Positions 6,151 through 54,264 of a stretch of DNA of 64,000 nt are shown here, in pieces; within the stretch, counting starts at the first letter, position 1; the number at the start of each line of letters is the position of its first letter. Below the pieces are notes generated by a model, which saw only the letters and a program-made list of their open reading frames with translations, searched no databases and was not told where the DNA came from. The position numbers were made by a program, and so were the translations under genes. The DNA lies in NCBI RefSeq assembly GCF_008000815.1, contig NZ_CP042806.1, positions 310,001 to 374,000 on the forward strand, read 5' to 3'. The DNA comes from Terriglobus albidus (GTDB taxonomy: Bacteria; Acidobacteriota; Terriglobia; Terriglobales; Acidobacteriaceae).

Positions 6151-6160
6151 TGCATGGGTC

Positions 6161-6181
6161 ACCTACCGGAGAAATGCTCTA
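6161..6181 (-). repeat. Truncated right end of the ~116-bp TA-flanked repeat
   Basis: A 21-base segment ending in GAGAAATGCTCTA matches the right end of the complete copy at 8116-8231. Only the end is present; the rest of this copy is missing. Confidence 0.7.
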
Positions 6182-6310
6182 GTGTTGTGAGTCTAAAGTT
6201 TGCGACGAAATTGTTTTCATTCTGAACGTTCGGGGTCATCAACGAATCCGGCCTTCAGCAAAGTTCTTGTCTTAACCGCGAGCGCCAAAGGGAGCTTTGT
6301 TTTGCTTAAG

Positions 6311-6331
6311 GGCACGGCTTTTAGCCGTGCC
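6311..6331. repeat. REP-like hairpin
   Basis: GGCACGGCT and AGCCGTGCC form a perfect 9-bp stem around TTT. It shares the GGCTTTAGCC-like core with the hairpins at 6352-6365 and with the two interrupted hairpins nearby. Confidence 0.7.
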
Positions 6332-6345
6332 GTATGGATCCCCAC

Positions 6346-6370
6346 TGAGACGCGGCTTTAGCCGCTGAGG
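6346..6370. repeat. REP-like hairpin, intact homologue of the IS110 target
   Basis: GCGGCT and AGCCGC pair around TT within a longer GAGACGCGG...CCGCTGAGG context. Its reverse complement, CCTCAGCGGCT followed by AAAGCCGC, is exactly what the two flanks of the IS110-family insertion give when joined. Confidence 0.75.
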
Positions 6371-6410
6371 GCATAATCTCGGTACCTCAGCGGCTTCTAT
6401 GAGACGGCTG

Positions 6411-6648
6411 TATGGGTCAAGTTTTTTCCTTCATAGAGTTTTTGTATTTGCAGTTGCAGTTGCGGTTGTGTTTTGGATTCATCTCGGGGCTTCTATCCGC
6501 ACTCGCAGTGAGCCGCTAAGGGACTCGGTGCCTGTTGGGACCCGATGGTGATGAATTGGGGCTGCTATCTGAAGCACGACCTGTATGGCCCAGCCGCTGA
6601 GCGCAGTCACCCGGACACGAGATTGTTCTGCTTTGGCCGATCCGCGGT
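6411..6648 (-). ncRNA. Candidate bridge RNA region of the IS110-family element
   Basis: IS110-family recombinases use a structured bridge RNA from the long non-coding end of the element, and this is the only end long enough here. On the transposase strand it contains CTCAGCGGCT (complement of 6592-6601), identical over 10 nt to the left target flank including the CT core. A second segment with AGCGGCT (complement of 6511-6517) lies further on, and ATAGAAGCC, also found across the element's own end, is near 6488-6497. Exact ends and fold are not determined. Any short open frames here are probably not genes. Confidence 0.35.
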
Positions 6649-7737
6649 TCAGGCTACGGTGGCCATTGCAGGTTGAGGGAAGTGTTGGAAGCTCTGTCCG
6701 CTGCGCCACATGCTGTGCAACAGGACCGCCAGTTTACGGGCCACCGCCACGATAGCTCGCTTTTTTGCTCTCTTGCCTCCACTGGATGCCAGCTTGAGGC
6801 CCCAGCGACGCAAGGCTGAGTCAGGACCGAAGCGACCCAGGATGTATTGCGCCGACTGCACCAGCAGACTTCGTAAATATCGGTTGCCGGTCTTGGAGAT
6901 GCCTAACTCCGGATCCGAGTCCCCCGACTGACTTTGTCCGGGTCGCAGACCGAGCCACGCACCTGCGGAACGGTTGCTTGCTATATTGGGCCGGTCCAGC
7001 GTGAGTACATACGTGGCCGCCACCACAGGACCCACGCCTGGAACCGTACGCAGCACACCGATCTCCGGATACCTGGTACCCAGCTTTTCGATCTGTTCTT
7101 CCATACTGTCGATCTGACGGTTCAACGTCGCGATCTGCTCCAACAACGGAACCGCTACCGTCGTCAGCACAGACGGAATCGATGCCCGCACCCGCACAGG
7201 AAACGACTCGGTGGAACAGGCCGGCAGACGGCCACCGGCGCTTTTGACCAGGCCACGCAACGCGTTGACCAGCATCGTCCGCGCACGTACTAGCGTAGCC
7301 CGCGCCTGGATCAGGTTCAGGTCCTGCTGCCGCTCCATGCTGCGGTGAAGCAGCGGCGCCAGCAACTTAGGATCAGACGCCGCGAAGCGAGCCAGCTGCT
7401 CGGCATCGTTGCGATCGTTCTTCGATTCACTCGAGCTGATCGCCGCGATCTTGCGCGCATTGGCCACGATCACCTGATGACCTAAAGACTTGAGCAAACG
7501 GCTTACCCACGGAGAGTGCGTGCCGCACTCCAGTGCTATTCGCTGCCGCTCCTCGCCCTCGAAATGACGTCGGAACGCCGCCTCCGTACTCTGGATACGA
7601 CCTTCCTCCATCACTTCCTTCCCTGCGTTCAACAGACAGTAGTGGCTGTAACGGTCCCCTAAATCAAGCCCTACCGTCAGCGCTGGCCTGTCACTCCCCA
7701 TTTCCTCTAACCACTGCGCTTTGCTAACCTTCTTCAT
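6649..7737 (-). CDS. IS110-family transposase (DEDD recombinase)
   Basis: 362 residues, full length. The N-terminal RuvC-like DEDD domain shows VGLDLGDRYSHY (first Asp), ALECGTHS (Glu) and KNDRNDAEQLAR (Asp pair). The C-terminal Transposase_20 domain shows LRTVPGVGPVVAATYV and the serine-containing SGDSDPELGISKTGNRYLR segment. No frameshift is seen, so the element may be active. The GGAGACC-type sequence just upstream of the ATG may serve as ribosome binding site. Confidence 0.95.
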   Translation of the reverse strand: MKKVSKAQWLEEMGSDRPALTVGLDLGDRYSHYCLLNAGKEVMEEGRIQSTEAAFRRHFEGEERQRIALECGTHSPWVSRLLKSLGHQVIVANARKIAAISSSESKNDRNDAEQLARFAASDPKLLAPLLHRSMERQQDLNLIQARATLVRARTMLVNALRGLVKSAGGRLPACSTESFPVRVRASIPSVLTTVAVPLLEQIATLNRQIDSMEEQIEKLGTRYPEIGVLRTVPGVGPVVAATYVLTLDRPNIASNRSAGAWLGLRPGQSQSGDSDPELGISKTGNRYLRSLLVQSAQYILGRFGPDSALRRWGLKLASSGGKRAKKRAIVAVARKLAVLLHSMWRSGQSFQHFPQPAMATVA

Positions 7738-7850
7738 CGGCTGGTCTCCTTGAGCACCCCGAGTGCGTGCGAACAGCTTAGCTGCTTCGCGAGGCCAGCC
7801 GTCTCATCCCATCTAAAGCCGCATGTATTTCAGTGCGGGGACGGGACGGC

Positions 7851-8007
7851 TAAACAGGCTGCGGAAAAACTCGATTTTCGAGAAGCGCAAAAAAAACGAT
7901 CGCGTCAGAATGACCTATAAGCGATCCGGGGACATTGGGTGATGATTTTCTATCCCCAAATTTGACCCGATTATCCCCTCATATAGAGTTTTTCCGCAGC
8001 CTGTAAA
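7851..8007. mobile_element. 149-bp MITE-like element with 18-bp inverted repeats and TAAA target duplication
   Basis: CAGGCTGCGGAAAAACTC at 7855-7872 is perfectly repeated in reverse at 7986-8003. TAAA flanks it on both sides (7851-7854, 8004-8007). Removing the element and one TAAA restores GGGACGGC-TAAA-GCCGTCCC, a REP-like hairpin, so the insertion hit the hairpin loop. It has no coding capacity, so it is a non-autonomous element. Confidence 0.8.
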
Positions 8008-8115
8008 GCCGTCCCCTTAAGCAAGACATTCGTACCTGCGGGGCGAAGAGCGCTCGCTGAAACACTAGAACTCTTCATGATTTATGTCACGGACTTTAGA
8101 CTCGGGGCACTAGAC

Positions 8116-8231
8116 TAGAGCATTTCCCCTGTTACTGGGTATCCCGGGAGTAGCGTGCAGCGGCGTTTTCATTGCGGAAAACGCCCATAGATGCATAAGC
8201 CCTGCACGACACCTACAGGAGAAATGCTCTA
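8116..8231 (+). repeat. ~116-bp TA-flanked palindromic repeat, copy 1 (complete)
   Basis: Ends TAGAGCATTTCCCCTGT and its inverse ACAGGAGAAATGCTCTA. The inside contains a GGCGTTTTC/GAAAACGCC hairpin around ATTGCG. The last three bases, read on the minus strand, are the TAG stop of the gene at 8229-9797. Related copies are at 21063-21178, 35081-35198 and 43744-44118. Confidence 0.85.
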
Positions 8232-9797
8232 TCGCACGATCTCGATACGAACGCCCTCGGGAACCACTCGCGAGAACTGCTCTAGCTTCTCTCGTACGAT
8301 CTCAGCCTCTTCAGGTGTGGTTGCAACCACATCAACAGCGGTCTCGGCAGTTGTCCGGTGAGCAATCAGCAGATTACGAATGTGGCCTGCAACGATCCAC
8401 TCTTTCGGGATATCGGGGTACCACTTCGTATAGATCATCAGGAATTTCACATTGTGTTCCCTGGTGACTGAACGAAGAAACGCAGCAGTCTTGTCATGGG
8501 TCGCCGTCTCAAAGGAGCCTAGTCCAACGAGATCGAGTATGTAGATATTCGGGTCGTGATCGAAGGCGACACAGCCCAGGTCATTGACCGCCACAGGCTT
8601 GTGATAGAACATCTCTTCGAAACGATGCATCTGCATCTGCTGGAGATAGACGGAGCGGGCCGCATAAGGTACGCGTCCGACAACCTCAGCATAAGTCACG
8701 CACCAGATAATCGGCAGAATCAGAATCCATGCGGTGCGACGCCACTGAGCAATGAGACTCATGCAAAGCAGCAGGCAGAAACCGCTCACGGCGGCGTCGT
8801 ACCGGTAGAACCAGCCTTGCGGCCCGAGAAGAAGAAGAAGAACGATCGCCGCCGTACCAGCAAGAATCGCATTTCGCTTTGTACTGTCGTGACGGACACG
8901 GAAGTACGCCGCGGCAAGAATCACCAGGCTGATGAGGAACCGCCCACGATGGATCAGGCTCTCCAGGTTGCCCTTGATGATCTGCATAATGTTGCTCGTC
9001 ATCGAGCGATTCATGTTGGTGGTTGCCGTGGCCGTGGCGCCTTTGACCAACACCGATGTGGGTAGAAATGGGAGCCCCTTGGATCTCAGGTATAGACCGA
9101 ACAGCACCAGGGGAGCAGCGCCGAGAATGAAAATCGCAATTGCCGAAGCGCGCTTCTGCTGGAACCAGCAAATCAGGGAAATCGCTAATGTGAATGCCAG
9201 GTCCTCATACCGGATTGCCGGGGCAAGCACGGCAGCAACCAGCACAAAGTTCGGCATAGGCCTTCCGGCATAGGCCTCCATCACACCGTAGGCGCAGGCA
9301 ATTGCCAGAAGGAACTGCAGGGTGTGCTCCATGCCGACAAAACTCAACCCAATGAGGTTGAGCGCGAGCACGATGAAAAACGCGGCCGTCAGGCGATAGA
9401 GAAATGGCGATTTTCCATCTTTCCGCACAAGGACATTCCAGCGGTCAAAGAAGCGCCCAAGCAGGAAACAGCATCCCGCACCCGCGACAATGTTGTAGAG
9501 CAACGGAATCCAGATACGAACGGCACTCGTGCTGAACGGAACCAGAAGATAGGGCCACAGGATGCTCGACGCCGGAGACGCGGACTCTCCAAAGTTAATG
9601 GTGTAGCTGCCGTGCAGCAGACGCTGGGCCAATGCCAGGTGAATATAAGGATCGTCCAGAGCATAGGTAAAGCTTCCGTGGCAGAACCAGAGAACAACAG
9701 ACAATGTTGCGACGCTCAGCAGGCCATACATTGCCAACAGCATTCGGCTGAAGCCGCCGGTTGCTTGAACTTCTCCAGCAGACTGGACAGTGGACAT
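8229..9797 (-). CDS. Polytopic membrane protein, GT-C glycosyltransferase-like
   Basis: 522 residues with about ten hydrophobic segments from residue 18 onward (LLAMYGLLSVATLSVVLWF; FFIVLALNLIGLSFVGM; AAIVLLLLLG and others). The first periplasmic loop has an Asp pair in YALDDPYIHLALAQ (residues 48-49) followed by GESASPASSILWPYLL. This pattern is typical of lipid-phosphate-sugar dependent GT-C transferases such as the ArnT/PMT-like families. The C-terminal ~120 residues are soluble. Substrate unknown. The stop codon is supplied by the adjoining repeat. No operon partner is evident. Confidence 0.75.
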   Translation of the reverse strand: MSTVQSAGEVQATGGFSRMLLAMYGLLSVATLSVVLWFCHGSFTYALDDPYIHLALAQRLLHGSYTINFGESASPASSILWPYLLVPFSTSAVRIWIPLLYNIVAGAGCCFLLGRFFDRWNVLVRKDGKSPFLYRLTAAFFIVLALNLIGLSFVGMEHTLQFLLAIACAYGVMEAYAGRPMPNFVLVAAVLAPAIRYEDLAFTLAISLICWFQQKRASAIAIFILGAAPLVLFGLYLRSKGLPFLPTSVLVKGATATATTNMNRSMTSNIMQIIKGNLESLIHRGRFLISLVILAAAYFRVRHDSTKRNAILAGTAAIVLLLLLGPQGWFYRYDAAVSGFCLLLCMSLIAQWRRTAWILILPIIWCVTYAEVVGRVPYAARSVYLQQMQMHRFEEMFYHKPVAVNDLGCVAFDHDPNIYILDLVGLGSFETATHDKTAAFLRSVTREHNVKFLMIYTKWYPDIPKEWIVAGHIRNLLIAHRTTAETAVDVVATTPEEAEIVREKLEQFSRVVPEGVRIEIVR

Positions 9798-19319: not shown

Positions 19320-19331
19320 TTTGTCGAACTT

Positions 19332-19486
19332 GGTGGGAGCAGCGGGCTTCAGCCCGCTGATAAAGGCGTAAAAGTAAATGGGCTTTATAGCCCTGGGATC
19401 TCTTCACCGTCTGGAAAGGCCCAGGGCTAAAAAGCCCATTTTTCTGGATGCTGATTGACCGTGGCCTGAAGGCCACGGCTCCCACC
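19332..19486. repeat. REP/BIME-like intergenic palindromic array
   Basis: Outer inverted ends GGTGGGAGC and GCTCCCACC enclose three hairpins: AGCGGGCTTCAGCCCGCT, a broken GGGCT...AGCCC pair, and CCGTGGCCTGAAGGCCACGG. The same organisation recurs at 54047-54159, so this is a mobile intergenic repeat family. Confidence 0.8.
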
Positions 19487-19563
19487 GGGTTCGAGCTTCG
19501 CTCGAATAGTTCACCACGGGTGCCCCACCCATCGCGGTGCGATGGATCTTGCTTCTTCATACC

Positions 19564-20548: not shown

Positions 20549-20657
20549 CTCTCTTTTCTCCTTGGGGAACCTCGATTGCGAGTCTCTGCGCTTTTCTGGT
20601 GGCTTGTCAATCTGCGTCATGTATATTGGCTGCACCCATCCCCCGAGGAGACCATCG

Positions 20658-21065
20658 ATGAAACGCTTCGCCGCGCTTTTGCTCTCACTAACAGCTACCG
20701 CCTTTGCCGCCTCCACTCCTATCGCGGGCAGCTGGAAGATCTATGGCGACGTCAGCGGCTATCCCGTCAATGAGAGCTGCACGTTCTCGATCGACAAAGA
20801 CAACAAGATCACCGGAACCTGCTCGCTCGGCAACAAGTCGTACGACGTGACCGGGACGCTGGAGGACACGAAGCTTACCTTCAAGCACGGTGGCGAGTAT
20901 GAAGGCCAGGCGCTCATTCTGACCTGGGTCGGCACTCTTGCGGAAGACGGCTCCCTGGCAGGCACCATCGACGTACAGCCTCTCGGCTATCCCGGCACCT
21001 TCACCGCCAAGAAGGCAGAAGAAGACAAGCCGAAGGCTGAAGATAAGCCCGCCGCGCAACAGTAG
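20658..21065 (+). CDS. Small exported protein with a C-terminal charged tail
   Basis: 135 residues. MKRFAALLLSLTATAFAAS is a signal peptide with CGAGGAG upstream. The mature part is beta-rich (GSWKIYGDVSGYPVNESCTF, GTLEDTKLTFKHGGEYEG, DGSLAGTIDV) with two cysteines that could pair, and ends in a Lys/Glu/Pro-rich tail (KKAEEDKPKAEDKPAAQQ). It resembles small beta-barrel lipid- or ligand-binding proteins but no family is recognised. Its TAG stop is formed by the first bases of the repeat at 21063. Confidence 0.75.
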   Translation: MKRFAALLLSLTATAFAASTPIAGSWKIYGDVSGYPVNESCTFSIDKDNKITGTCSLGNKSYDVTGTLEDTKLTFKHGGEYEGQALILTWVGTLAEDGSLAGTIDVQPLGYPGTFTAKKAEEDKPKAEDKPAAQQ

Positions 21066-21178
21066 ACCATTTTTCCTGTAGGTGTAGTGTAGGGTTTCGG
21101 CATCTATGGGCGTTTTCCGCAATGAAAACGCCGCGGTACTTCTCTTCCGGGATACCCAGCAACAGGAAAAATGGTCTA
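21063..21178 (-). repeat. ~116-bp TA-flanked palindromic repeat, copy 2
   Basis: Opposite orientation to copy 1. Ends TAGACCATTTTTCCTGT and ACAGGAAAAATGGTCTA are perfect inverses; the central GGCGTTTTC/GAAAACGCC hairpin is conserved. TAG at 21063-21065 is the stop codon of the preceding gene. The following gene starts 25 bases after the repeat, so the repeat also occupies its upstream region. Confidence 0.88.
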
Positions 21179-34012: not shown

Positions 34013-34057
34013 CTACGGATACAGCAGTAAAACGCCGCATTCTGTGGAGTGGGCGGT

Positions 34058-34112
34058 AAACAAAAGAGCCCTGCGACCATCTCCTTTTCAGGAGCAGCCG
34101 CAGGGCCTTTCC
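34058..34112. terminator. Bidirectional terminator between vsr and the 308-residue gene
   Basis: GCCCTGCG (34068-34075) pairs with CGCAGGGC (34099-34106), with an inner CTCCT/AGGAG pair. On the minus strand it is followed by TCTTTTGTTT, so it mainly serves the gene ending at 34121. Confidence 0.8.
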
Positions 34113-34120
34113 AAACTTGC

Positions 34121-35047
34121 TTACATGTTCGCCTTGCCGGCGCGCATGTCTTCGTTGAACTGGGGCTTGGTGAAGTTCACCGAGTCCTGCATCTCTTTCT
34201 CGTACTCGGCACGGTGATGCATCAGGCCCTCGGTCGGCGTAGCGTACTCGGCTCCAGCCGTAAGCTGGATGACTCCATCCGACGCCAGGGCAGTCGCGAC
34301 CTTCTTCAGGTCTTCGACCGTGGTATTCAGATACTGCGCATCGCGCGGGTCGAGCACCCATACCGGCTGGCCGCCGCCGAGCACGCCCGAAAGCCAGAAG
34401 ACTTTCTTCGCAATGAAGTCCAGGCGCTGCTGCTCAACGGTGTCGTTGAAGACGAAGGTCTTGCGCCAGCGCGAGTAGTAGCGGGTGGTCACCGGTACGG
34501 GCTGACGGTTGCCGGACTTCACAAACTCCAACTGGCCCTGGTCCATGGTCTTGCGGACGGCGTTGTAGATGAAGCTCTCGGCAAAGGGCTGTTCCATCGC
34601 CGGAACGATCTCGGCGAAGGTCAGCGTCATCGACGCCGAGACCTTGGCGTGCAGCACCGGCTGTGCTCCGTCTTCCAGCCACGCCTCGCCGTGGACGATA
34701 TACGTGTCCGCGCCCGAGGTGGAGGTGTGGAAGGGCCAGGCGAACTTCGAGAAGCTGATCGGCAGGCCGTGCATGGTGACGTAGGTATCCGGCCGCGGAT
34801 TCTTCAGACGCTTGGCGGCCTCGGCAAAGTAGGTCTTCAGCTCGTCCTGAATCTCCGGGCGGCCGAAGTCGAAGTCGGCGCTGAACTCCAGCGTCTCAGA
34901 CTTGCCCTCGGGATTGGCGAGGGTGAACTTCGTGGTGGGCTTGCCGGTGAAATCGGCGCCGGAGGTGGTATTGCTGACCGTAAGACCCGCGACGCGGGCG
35001 GCCTCTTCGACCTGCTGCTGCAGGCTGAGCTGGGTTGCTGCTGCCAT
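34121..35047 (-). CDS. Conserved-looking cytosolic protein of unknown function
   Basis: 308 residues from MAAATQLSLQQQVEEAARV; GGAG is 12 bases upstream. No signal peptide or membrane segment. The N-terminal ~90 residues (LTVSNTTSGADFTGKPTTKFTLANPEGK...FSADFDFGRPEIQDELKTYF) look alpha/beta; the C-terminal part is Trp/Tyr-rich (RYYSRWRKTFVFND; GGGQPVWVLDPRDAQYLN). I do not recognise a family. It has its own terminator and its upstream region holds repeat copy 3. Confidence 0.7.
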   Translation of the reverse strand: MAAATQLSLQQQVEEAARVAGLTVSNTTSGADFTGKPTTKFTLANPEGKSETLEFSADFDFGRPEIQDELKTYFAEAAKRLKNPRPDTYVTMHGLPISFSKFAWPFHTSTSGADTYIVHGEAWLEDGAQPVLHAKVSASMTLTFAEIVPAMEQPFAESFIYNAVRKTMDQGQLEFVKSGNRQPVPVTTRYYSRWRKTFVFNDTVEQQRLDFIAKKVFWLSGVLGGGQPVWVLDPRDAQYLNTTVEDLKKVATALASDGVIQLTAGAEYATPTEGLMHHRAEYEKEMQDSVNFTKPQFNEDMRAGKANM

Positions 35048-35080
35048 GGTTCGTGTTTTCTCCAAGAATCCTTAATATTT

Positions 35081-35198
35081 TAGAGCGTTTTCCCTGTTAC
35101 GGGGCATCCCGGAAGGGGCGTGCAACGGCGTTTTCATTGCGGGAAAACGCCCATAGGCCTCGGAAGCCCTACATTACATCCGCAGGGAAAACGCTCCA
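35081..35198 (+). repeat. ~116-bp TA-flanked palindromic repeat, copy 3
   Basis: Ends TAGAGCGTTTTCCCTGT and GCAGGGAAAACGCTCCA; the right terminal TA is changed to CA. The central GGCGTTTTC/GAAAACGCC hairpin is conserved. It lies between two minus-strand genes, 15 bases from the stop of the downstream-coordinate gene, and does not form a stop codon here. Confidence 0.85.
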
Positions 35199-42481: not shown

Positions 42482-42988
42482 TTACAACCCACGCTGCATC
42501 AACAAGCTGTCCAGCGCGCGGTCGAACTTCCAACCCACCCCTTGCAGCACACCGACGCGCACAAAGCCGAGCTTCTCATGTAGCCGCACGGAGGCGGCAT
42601 TTTCGTCGCCTCCGCCGATCACCGCCACCATCTGCCGCGCACCCCATTCCGTACAGCGCTCCAGCAACTGCTCCATCAGCAGGCGGCCGATACCCTGTCC
42701 TGCAGTCTCGTGATGGATATAAACCGAGTTCTCAAGGGTGAACCGATACGCCGCCCGGGGACGATACGGCCCGGCGTAGGCATAGCCCACAACGCGTCCT
42801 CCCTGCTCTGCTACCAGCCAGGGCAGGCCCTTCTCAGCAATCACCTTCATCCGAAGTCGAATCTCCTCCACCGTGGGAGGCTCCAGCTCAAAGGTCGCCG
42901 TACTGGAACGGACGTAATGCCCGTAGATTTCCGCGATCGCCTCTGCGTCCGACGTCTCTACCGGACGCACCTGTATCTCTGTTGCCAT
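42482..42988 (-). CDS. GNAT acetyltransferase, phosphinothricin acetyltransferase-like
   Basis: 168 residues from MATEIQVRPVETSDAEAIAEIYGHYV. PAT-type marks: STATFELEPPTVEEIRLRM, GYAYAGPYRPRAAYRFTLENSVYI and the acetyl-CoA loop GQGIGRLLMEQLLE, then GGGDENAASVRLHEKLGFV. Such enzymes acetylate phosphinothricin, methionine sulfone/sulfoximine or other amino compounds. Convergent with doc (eight-base gap). Confidence 0.88.
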   Translation of the reverse strand: MATEIQVRPVETSDAEAIAEIYGHYVRSSTATFELEPPTVEEIRLRMKVIAEKGLPWLVAEQGGRVVGYAYAGPYRPRAAYRFTLENSVYIHHETAGQGIGRLLMEQLLERCTEWGARQMVAVIGGGDENAASVRLHEKLGFVRVGVLQGVGWKFDRALDSLLMQRGL

Positions 42989-43035
42989 CCCTTCATCTTG
43001 CACCGAAGCCGCCTTCGCCTGCACCCTTGATATAC

Positions 43036-43746
43036 GTGGCACGTAAGCAGACAGCTCCGGTCGTTCATCCCTTCGACGCAAAGTACGGCACCGAGACCGG
43101 CGGCCTTATCCCCGGAACGAAGCTCAAGACCGGCCACATGCATGACCGCCACAACACCGCCTACCATGGCACCGCACCCTCGCTCTTCGCGCAATTGATG
43201 GAGCGCTGGCAGAACACCTGGACTCCCGTGCCGCCCAGCGACTACGCCTTTGTCGATGTCGGCGCCGGAAAAGGCCGCTCCTCTTTTCTGGCCGCTCGCA
43301 TGCACTTCCGCAGCGTGACCGGTGTCGAACTGAACCCGGTCCTGGCAGGAATCGCGCAGGAGAACATCGCCCGCTTCGCGCCGTACGCCGTCTCCCCCGT
43401 CAGCATCGTGGAGGGCGACATCATGACCCTGCCGCTGCCTGCCGGACCATTGCTGCTCTATCTCTTCAACCCCTTCAGCGCCACTGTGCTTCGGCGCCTT
43501 CTCAAACGGCTGGACTCCCGGCAGGCCACCGCTCCTACGCCGCTTGACGTTCTCTACGTGAACGACGAGCAGCGCGCCGTTCTGCTGAAACATGGCGGAC
43601 TGCGCGAGCTGTGGACCGGCGACCTGCACCTCTCCGACGAGGATGACGAGGCCGATCGCGCGACCATCCGCCGCGACGCACATGGGCTTTATGCCGTGGA
43701 AGGCTACGAGCGCTGCAGCATCTGGAGATGGCAGATAGACGAGTAG
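43036..43746 (+). CDS. Class I SAM-dependent methyltransferase
   Basis: 236 residues from the GTG at 43036 (VARKQTAPVVHPFD); a TTG at 42982 would overlap the divergent GNAT gene by seven bases. Motif I is VDVGAGKGRSSFLAA, followed by VTGVELNPVLAGIAQ and VEGDIMTLPLP. LLLYLFNPFSATVLRRLL is the substrate-side strand. Substrate unknown. The TAG stop is the first codon of repeat copy 4. Confidence 0.82.
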   Translation: MARKQTAPVVHPFDAKYGTETGGLIPGTKLKTGHMHDRHNTAYHGTAPSLFAQLMERWQNTWTPVPPSDYAFVDVGAGKGRSSFLAARMHFRSVTGVELNPVLAGIAQENIARFAPYAVSPVSIVEGDIMTLPLPAGPLLLYLFNPFSATVLRRLLKRLDSRQATAPTPLDVLYVNDEQRAVLLKHGGLRELWTGDLHLSDEDDEADRATIRRDAHGLYAVEGYERCSIWRWQIDE

Positions 43747-44118
43747 AGCATTTTCCCTGTTGCGAGGGTGTGTCATCAAACTCGTGCCGTCAGCGCCGGG
43801 AGCAGATTTTTACGAGATCGAGGAGTGAGGAGAGAACTGTAGCCGGCCTACTGGAACGACGAGTGACGAGGAGATCGGGAAAATCTGCCCCGGCCCTTCG
43901 GGTTGCGGCGCAAATTCGCCCATACTTCGTTGTCGGCCTCGACTGTGACCCGCCACAGCCTCCGCCTCGTCTGTACAAATTTGCGCTCGCAACGCTGACG
44001 ACAGGAGTTTGATGACACACCCTCGGTATCCCGAAAGAGGAGTACAGCGGCGTTTTCATTGCGGAAAACGCCCATAGATGCGGAGGCCCTACTCCACAAT
44101 TACAGGGAAAATGCTCTA
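43744..44118 (+). repeat. ~116-bp TA-flanked palindromic repeat, copy 4, interrupted by another element
   Basis: Left end TAGAGCATTTTCCCTGTTG (43744-43762), right part from about 44026 to TGCTCTA at 44118. Removing the 263-bp insert leaves ~112 bp that align with copies 1-3, including GGCGTTTTC/GAAAACGCC. Its first three bases are the stop of the methyltransferase gene. Confidence 0.88.
43763..44025. mobile_element. 263-bp MITE-like element with 21-bp perfect terminal inverted repeats
   Basis: CGAGGGTGTGTCATCAAAC begins the left end (43763-43783) and its exact inverse closes the right end (44005-44025). The similarity continues imperfectly inwards (CGTCAGCG on both arms, then ATTTTTAC against AAATTTGT), so the whole element may fold into a long hairpin. 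It has no credible gene. No clear target duplication is visible. It sits inside repeat copy 4. Confidence 0.85.
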
Positions 44119-54046: not shown

Positions 54047-54159
54047 GGTGGGAGCAGCGGGCTTTAAGCCCGCTGACAAGAAGGTATAAAAACAACGGGC
54101 TTTAGCCCAACTTCTCGTGTATCCGGTAAAACCGTGGGCTGAAGCCCACGGCTCCCACC
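54047..54159. repeat. REP/BIME-like palindromic array, second copy
   Basis: Outer ends GGTGGGAGC and GCTCCCACC; inside AGCGGGCTTTAAGCCCGCT, AACGGGCTTTAGCCC and CCGTGGGCTGAAGCCCACGG. Same design as 19332-19486 but 42 bp shorter. The rest of the 53946-54264 gap has no gene. Confidence 0.8.
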
Positions 54160-54264
54160 AGGTTTAAGTCACGATTCACGCAGCGAATATCCCGCCCACC
54201 GCTGTCCCGATGGATAAGATATTCGGAATCTCACCCTCTCTTAGAGCGGATTGGATGACATACC

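Follow-up and report, generated by a model that had tools for sequence, protein, structure and literature searches.

The window analysed here, a stretch of 64,000 nucleotides, comprises positions 310001-374000 of contig C1 in the Terriglobus genome G000, which is a single contig of 6.41 Mb. Four copies of a palindromic repeat, a foreign insert and the three ORFs that end within a repeat copy are collected in Table 1. Both the repeat family and its overlap with stop codons are real. A preliminary description of this DNA, which listed four copies of about 116 bp with inverted ends starting in TAG, was right about the number of copies, whereas copy 3 measures 118 bp and copy 4 extends over 375 bp. 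Its reading of the terminal TAG as the stop codon of the neighbouring gene agrees with the ORFs in all three cases that it named (8229-8231, 21063-21065 and 43744-43746).

Table 1. Copies of the element in the window and the features adjoining them.
Feature	Position	Strand	Description
Element copy 1	8116..8231	+	116 bp; right end CTA (8229-8231) is the TAG stop of the minus-strand ORF 8229..9797
Element copy 2	21063..21178	-	116 bp; TAGACC/GGTCTA ends; right end is the TAG stop (21063-21065) of the plus-strand ORF 20562..21065
Element copy 3	35081..35198	+	118 bp; intergenic; right TA decayed to CA
Element copy 4	43744..44118	+	375 bp with nested insert; left-end TAG (43744-43746) is the stop of a plus-strand gene
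Foreign insert, ~260 bp	43764..44024	.	20-bp inverted ends GAGGGTGTGTCATCAAACTC; nested within element copy 4
ORF stopping in copy 1 TAG	8229..9797	-	522 aa from first start; 8229..9731 by coding score
ORF stopping in copy 2 TAG	20562..21065	+	20658..21065 by coding score
ORF stopping in copy 4 TAG	42982..43746	+	methyltransferase-domain match; 43036..43746 by coding score

Copy 4 begins with TAGAGCATTTTCCCTGTTGC, is broken at about 43764-44024 and ends at 44118; its length is a consequence of the palindrome-ended insert that splits it. Copy 3 was considered as a further stop-codon case, as a mechanical ORF (34049..35083) also stops in its TAG. The coding signal at 35081 runs on the opposite strand to this ORF, and copy 3 was therefore left out of the stop count. 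Searches of Pfam and NCBIfam gave no match for the ORFs at 8229 and 20562, both of which are supported by coding score; the latter lies within DNA that is conserved in the relatives G012 and G015. The segment 6154-9920, which contains an IS110-family transposase (6649-7737) together with copy 1 and its ORF (8229-9797), is absent from G012, in which the DNA matching window positions 6153 and 9921 stands about 206 bases apart. Positions 6160-6181 (CACCTACCGGAGAAATGCTCTA) resemble a right-end remnant of one more element copy. The window also holds a short palindromic repeat, ACCGTGGCCTGAAGGCCACGGCTCCCACC, at 19458-19491 and again at 54131-54164, and further dispersed repeats that match G008, G012 or G015 many times (~19331-19517, 7848-8028 and 6270-6395).

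A covariance model built from 26 copies gave at least 150 matches in G000, and an inner-hairpin pattern occurred at 192 sites versus 0 for the reversed control pattern. From 108 segments of this genome (803 kb, chosen mostly around element matches) 175 full and 8 partial copies were recovered, the partial ones being omitted from the analyses. TA is present at the left end of 150 of the 175 copies, at the right end of 131 and at both ends of 112, and copies lacking it at either end are read as decayed. No clear bias of element orientation with respect to the replichore was found. Of the 41 genomes that represent the closest relatives, G000, G008, G012 and G015 each carry at least 90 matches, G010 three and G017 one, and the other 35 show none at E<=0.001; long syntenic blocks of G008 are 89-90% identical to the window. 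A family-wide draw of 120 genomes gave 16 with a match, spanning 12 of 79 genera, and an order-wide draw gave 30 of 150, every listed positive coming from the same family, which we take to be Acidobacteriaceae.

For comparison across genera, 89 near-complete copies (47 + 42) from nine genera were assembled out of G148, G099, G136, G183, G215, G192, G177 and seven single loci; they are not all independent, since G148, G183 and G215 belong to one genus and some sites are orthologous (e.g. L382 and L399). Five identical copies in G215 are a sign of recent movement. A search of plasmids returned a single weak 39-base match, which was disregarded, and among viral contigs one carries perfect 12-base element ends and none has them at short spacing. 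Viral contig L353 contains a 129-bp stretch (6459-6587) with perfect TAGAGCATTTTC...GAAAATGCTCTA ends.

The element is non-coding and palindromic, mostly 115-118 bp long, and follows the scheme TAGAGC...GCTCTA with a central hairpin. It is a MITE by structure: short, non-coding, bounded by terminal inverted repeats, present in many copies, and accompanied by a TA duplication that comparison with empty sites reveals (see below). Its ends may resemble palindromic repeats of Rhizobiales. Each of the three window copies without an insert forms a strong fold on either strand (z -3.9 to -5.3). Copies in other genera measure 113-120 bp, mostly 115-117, and most of them keep the pairing of the central hairpin with changed sequence (e.g. 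GGCGTTTTC/GAAAACGCC, GCAGCTTTTC/GAAAAGCTGC and GTGGCCTTTC/GAAAGGCCAC), while some have lost most of the central stem. As the alignment shifts this stem by one column between families, pairing was counted element by element. For the outer arms, 169 copies of G000 (6 of the 175 were left out) matched their own partner at 13.19 of 15 positions vs 12.52 for shuffled partners (sd 0.06), and the 89 copies of other genera at 11.08 of 12 vs 9.51 (sd 0.11). The G000 signal arises mainly from position 11 (146 of 169 paired, 109 expected) and position 12 (136 of 169, 84 expected); the remaining positions are mostly at the level given by chance, a few slightly above it, and their mismatches are mostly uncompensated. 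We take this to mean that the ends are symmetrical at the time of movement and then decay freely, which speaks against continued selection on RNA structure.

Empty sites were sought across the sampled DNA with the joined flanks of 354 distinct copies. Candidates were obtained for 53, of which 46 passed the thresholds of >=70% local identity and at most 6 gaps. A single TA stands exactly at the junction in 30 of these 46, where the filled site carries two, and in 19 of the 24 with >=85% local identity; the proposed insertion at TA is thus borne out, with the TA duplicated upon insertion. The other 16 read CA (4), TG (3), -A (3), TC (2) or one of four single forms; some of them are diverged, and some reflect tandem arrays or poor alignment. 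Some sites are occupied in one genome and vacant in another, a sign of mobility. Of the window copies, copy 3 is lacking in G008, which shows a single TA at its site. The site of copy 2 is empty in G012 and G015, reading CAA TAA TAA AG, and the insertion is common to G008, which has a shortened copy with an A after the right TA, so that the original codon there reads TAA. For copy 4, the empty site of G017 (73% identity) reads GAG TAG CATCC vs GAG TAG-element in the window. No empty site was found for copy 1 among the relatives.

Related arrangements were noted elsewhere. Tandem arrays of 2-4 element units with a period of ~114 bp occur at L132, L115, L133, L102, L146, L270, L111 and L064 in G008 and at L169 in G015; their joints usually read CTCTA-[A/G]-TCGCATTTT, not TAGAGCATTTT, and variants are common to the units of one array. 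A second, related family has ends TAGAGCAATTCTCC and the hairpin GCCGTTTTC...GAAAACGGC (L098:3011-3242, L131 ~2193 and L144 ~2845), and at L098 the main element is nested within a copy of it. Finally, L188 ~535-593 (G000:C1 ~482535) is a short, near-perfect fold-back hairpin made of the left end of the element and its complement.

With gene calls from our own coding-score caller, the stop of a called gene lies exactly at an element end in 64 of the 175 copies (65 ends, 47 right and 18 left in element orientation). The background of non-coding TA sites, 371 in stops and 5834 intergenic, predicts ~6%, or 7.7% when motif-weighted, the non-coding class being inflated by missed genes because the calls (76% coding) are our own. 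The comparison that the preliminary description had proposed, between copies at stop codons and the expectation for random TA sites (here 6-8%), comes out in its favour. With all non-coding TA sites as the reference the odds ratio is 9.0 (P=4.5e-31); it is 4.0 (P=5.6e-11) when the reference is limited to TA lying up to 60 bp downstream of a stop. A test free of gene calls (score >10) gave a similar picture: where coding signal enters the element, its frame agrees with the TAG at 45 of 49 right ends and at 17 of 20 left ends.

Reconstruction of the codon before insertion (n=63) yielded TAG in 31 cases, TAA in 29, TAT in 2 and TAC in 1. As the codon was thus mostly a TAG or TAA already, stops are mostly preserved, not created. 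The suggestion that TAG is restored and the gene unharmed is supported by these reconstructed codons and by empty sites, which mostly show one TA vs two when filled and which bear a stop for two of the three window copies at stops. The second check set out in that description was also passed. In the other genera 32 of the 89 copies are at stops, the 6-8% background referring to G000 only. Their ends are in frame with TAG in 33 of 34 cases (score >10) or 36 of 40 (score >6), as judged by a coding model trained on G000. The original codon was TAG or TAA in 32 of 33, and a pyrimidine precedes the left TA in 83 of the 89 copies.

The target preference was determined at sites away from stops. In the sense facing the right end, TA+purine was occupied at 95 of 5465 oriented sites vs 15 of 6617 for TA+pyrimidine (odds ratio 7.8). 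The preference before the TA is G/C-rich, giving a whole motif of about GCG[A/C]-TA-[A/G], read towards the right end. The insertion rate per TA is 63/439 at stops, 18/316 at 1-20 bp, 19/607 at 20-60 bp, 21/924 at 60-150 bp and 50/4192 farther away. A logistic model that includes the motif (2 of the 175 copies omitted) gave a stop term of 2.28 (SE 0.16) vs 1.75 (SE 0.23) for the 20-bp term, a modest gap. Most of the excess at stops is attributed to the TA+purine preference and to tolerance near gene ends, with an insertion density that rises towards gene 3' ends; a TAA or TAG stop meets both. A small stop-specific extra is possible.

A source of mobility was searched for in carrier genomes, using DDE_3 in 5 and then 8 genomes, Y1_Tnp in 5, DUF4096 in 4 and DDE_Tnp_1 in G000 alone (15 loci). 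Neither the DDE_3, Y1_Tnp and DUF4096 loci nor the pairs of orphan ends yielded an autonomous element bearing the full inverted repeat. One IS of G015 (996 bp, HTH_Tnp_IS630 + DDE_3) has the ends TA-GAGCAAAGTT / TA-GAGCAGAATT and shares TA-GAGCA, ~7-9 bases, with the element; the remaining four of the five IS loci examined for TIR pairs with TA (L279-L282, L304) have ends that differ from it. Near-exact element ends were sought in L279-L303, with L283 and L369-L373 outside the end analysis. Across the 8 genomes, DDE_3 gave one 32-position fragment in G215, three matches in G208 and one broken match in G148, and none in G183, G192, G177, G099 and G195. The transposase could have been lost or be too remote for detection.

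Y1 transposases flanked by element ends were found at 0 of 20 loci (up to 4/17 mismatches; 20 of 22 Y1 matches covered), which speaks against a REP/REPIN with a Y1 (RAYT) transposase. Near these loci lie one ordinary element copy in each of L286 and L289 and one end each in L284, L294, L297 and L303. The sampled DNA contains 143 orphan ends. These give nine pairs with a spacing of 140-5000 bp, of which two represent one site; the eight ORFs checked between five of the pairs match host-gene families or nothing, and none is a transposase. Of the IS630/mariner type, to which the preliminary description had compared the target, the TA target and its duplication stood, whereas the attribution was not established, as none of the IS630 elements encountered carries the whole inverted repeat. 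The element is classed as a MITE by structure and an IS630 assignment is withheld, because no matching transposase was detected among the carriers searched.

The combined data are very probably explained by a non-autonomous hairpin MITE with a TA+purine target that rebuilds stops as TAG. The element inserts at TA, duplicates it and favours A or G as the next base. As its intact ends begin in TAG, a TAA or TAG stop that is hit at its TA becomes TAG, and the protein is unchanged. A TA-specific transposase would act on the element in trans, and purifying selection would purge insertions inside reading frames, making the stop the safest site that fits the motif. Active targeting, in which the machinery of transposition would respond, beyond the motif, to gene 3' ends or to the termination of translation or transcription, would likewise agree with the steady drop of the insertion rate with distance from the stop and with the occupancy of purine-oriented sites, which is 43/436 at stops facing the right end vs 31/877 within 60 bp downstream (odds ratio 3.0, P=6e-6). 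The same gradient would, however, arise if insertions elsewhere were selected against, the difference falls below 2-fold when the sites 1-10 bp downstream are considered (8/136), and the right-end bias of 47 to 18 is in line with the non-stop-derived motif, which predicts ~2.2 to 1. We regard such targeting as unlikely.

Retention of the element after stops as a terminator or mRNA-stabilising hairpin appears improbable. The strong folding on both strands and the central-hairpin pairing that survives sequence change between genera would suit such a role, but no terminator-like site was found inside the two elements scanned, the one weak site (21210) lying outside. Arm mismatches in G000 beyond positions 11 and 12 are at or barely above chance and mostly uncompensated, many copies lie away from gene ends, and sites vary among relatives. 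As TAG stands at each intact end, an in-frame insertion would terminate an ORF, and the element could in principle make new stops by cutting genes, the survivors mimicking stop-codon insertions. Random cuts would use three frames, whereas the ends are in frame in 62 of 69 cases in G000 and in 33 of 34 in other genera; a purine follows the target TA in 60 of 63, and the empty sites of relatives at 21063 and 43744 carry stops, which renders truncation highly implausible.

Among known repeats, the enterobacterial RU-1, which we take to be ERIC, and BOX of Streptococcus pneumoniae, a modular boxA-boxB-boxC structure, invite comparison; we know of no transposase for ERIC/RU-1. Length (113-120 vs 127 bp) and zero Rfam hits in the window speak against identity with ERIC, whose sequence would differ as well. 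The passages cited describe RU-1 as a palindromic stem-loop of 127 bp with TA ends and TA duplication, and report that at one gene end it removed the normal stop and lengthened the protein (PMC2759123); palindrome, stem-loop and TA ends with duplication are thus alike, and the effect on the stop is opposite to that of the Terriglobus element. For BOX, 36 CDSs are stated to overlap the repeat at the extreme 3' end, the repeat encoding the stop and truncation not being evident; structure and host are different, and no target motif or excess over expectation is given in the relevant part of that account (PMC3049150). RUP of Streptococcus pneumoniae is described as an IS630-linked TA element of 107 bp (PMC2229807), and the characterised IS ISY100 as duplicating TA on insertion (PMC2170065). 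IS630/Tc1-mariner MITEs such as RUP are alike in being short, non-coding and present in many copies, with inverted ends and TA duplication; the Terriglobus element differs in that no full-repeat IS630 partner was found for it, in several carriers without an intact DDE_3, and in its tested stop excess. QMITE2 of Coxiella burnetii is reported, in the text cited, as a MITE at gene 3' ends whose insertion adds C-terminal residues (PMC5896051), similar in position but extending the protein where the stop is kept in Terriglobus. IS870 of Agrobacterium is reported to use a CTAG target and to form a stop codon at the junction; in that case it is the ORF of the IS itself that gains its stop from the target, whereas the Terriglobus element supplies one for a host gene. 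Searches of open-licence PMC papers brought up no report that was recognised as this element family or as a tested stop-codon excess of a MITE or IS, and none on MITEs or inverted repeats in Terriglobus.

It is possible, if somewhat doubtful, that this one-family MITE lineage effectively targets the TAA/TAG trinucleotide in a preferred orientation as a safe-haven strategy, the residual excess at stops reflecting a coupling to gene 3' ends. Where mobile DNA goes to safe sites, the usual explanation lies in tRNA genes, att sites or terminators. Here, the combination of a TA target, one purine and a TAG end makes stop codons natural landing sites, for which target statistics, empty sites and recurrence in other genera provide support. 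If the safe-haven reading is true, gene ends would form a large reservoir of harmless sites, each insertion rebuilding the stop. The target and end structure offer an explanation, simple and open to test, for the rise of a non-coding element to well over a hundred copies at little harm. For annotation, they serve as a warning that many gene 3' ends in carrier genomes, together with their TAG stops, are element-derived.
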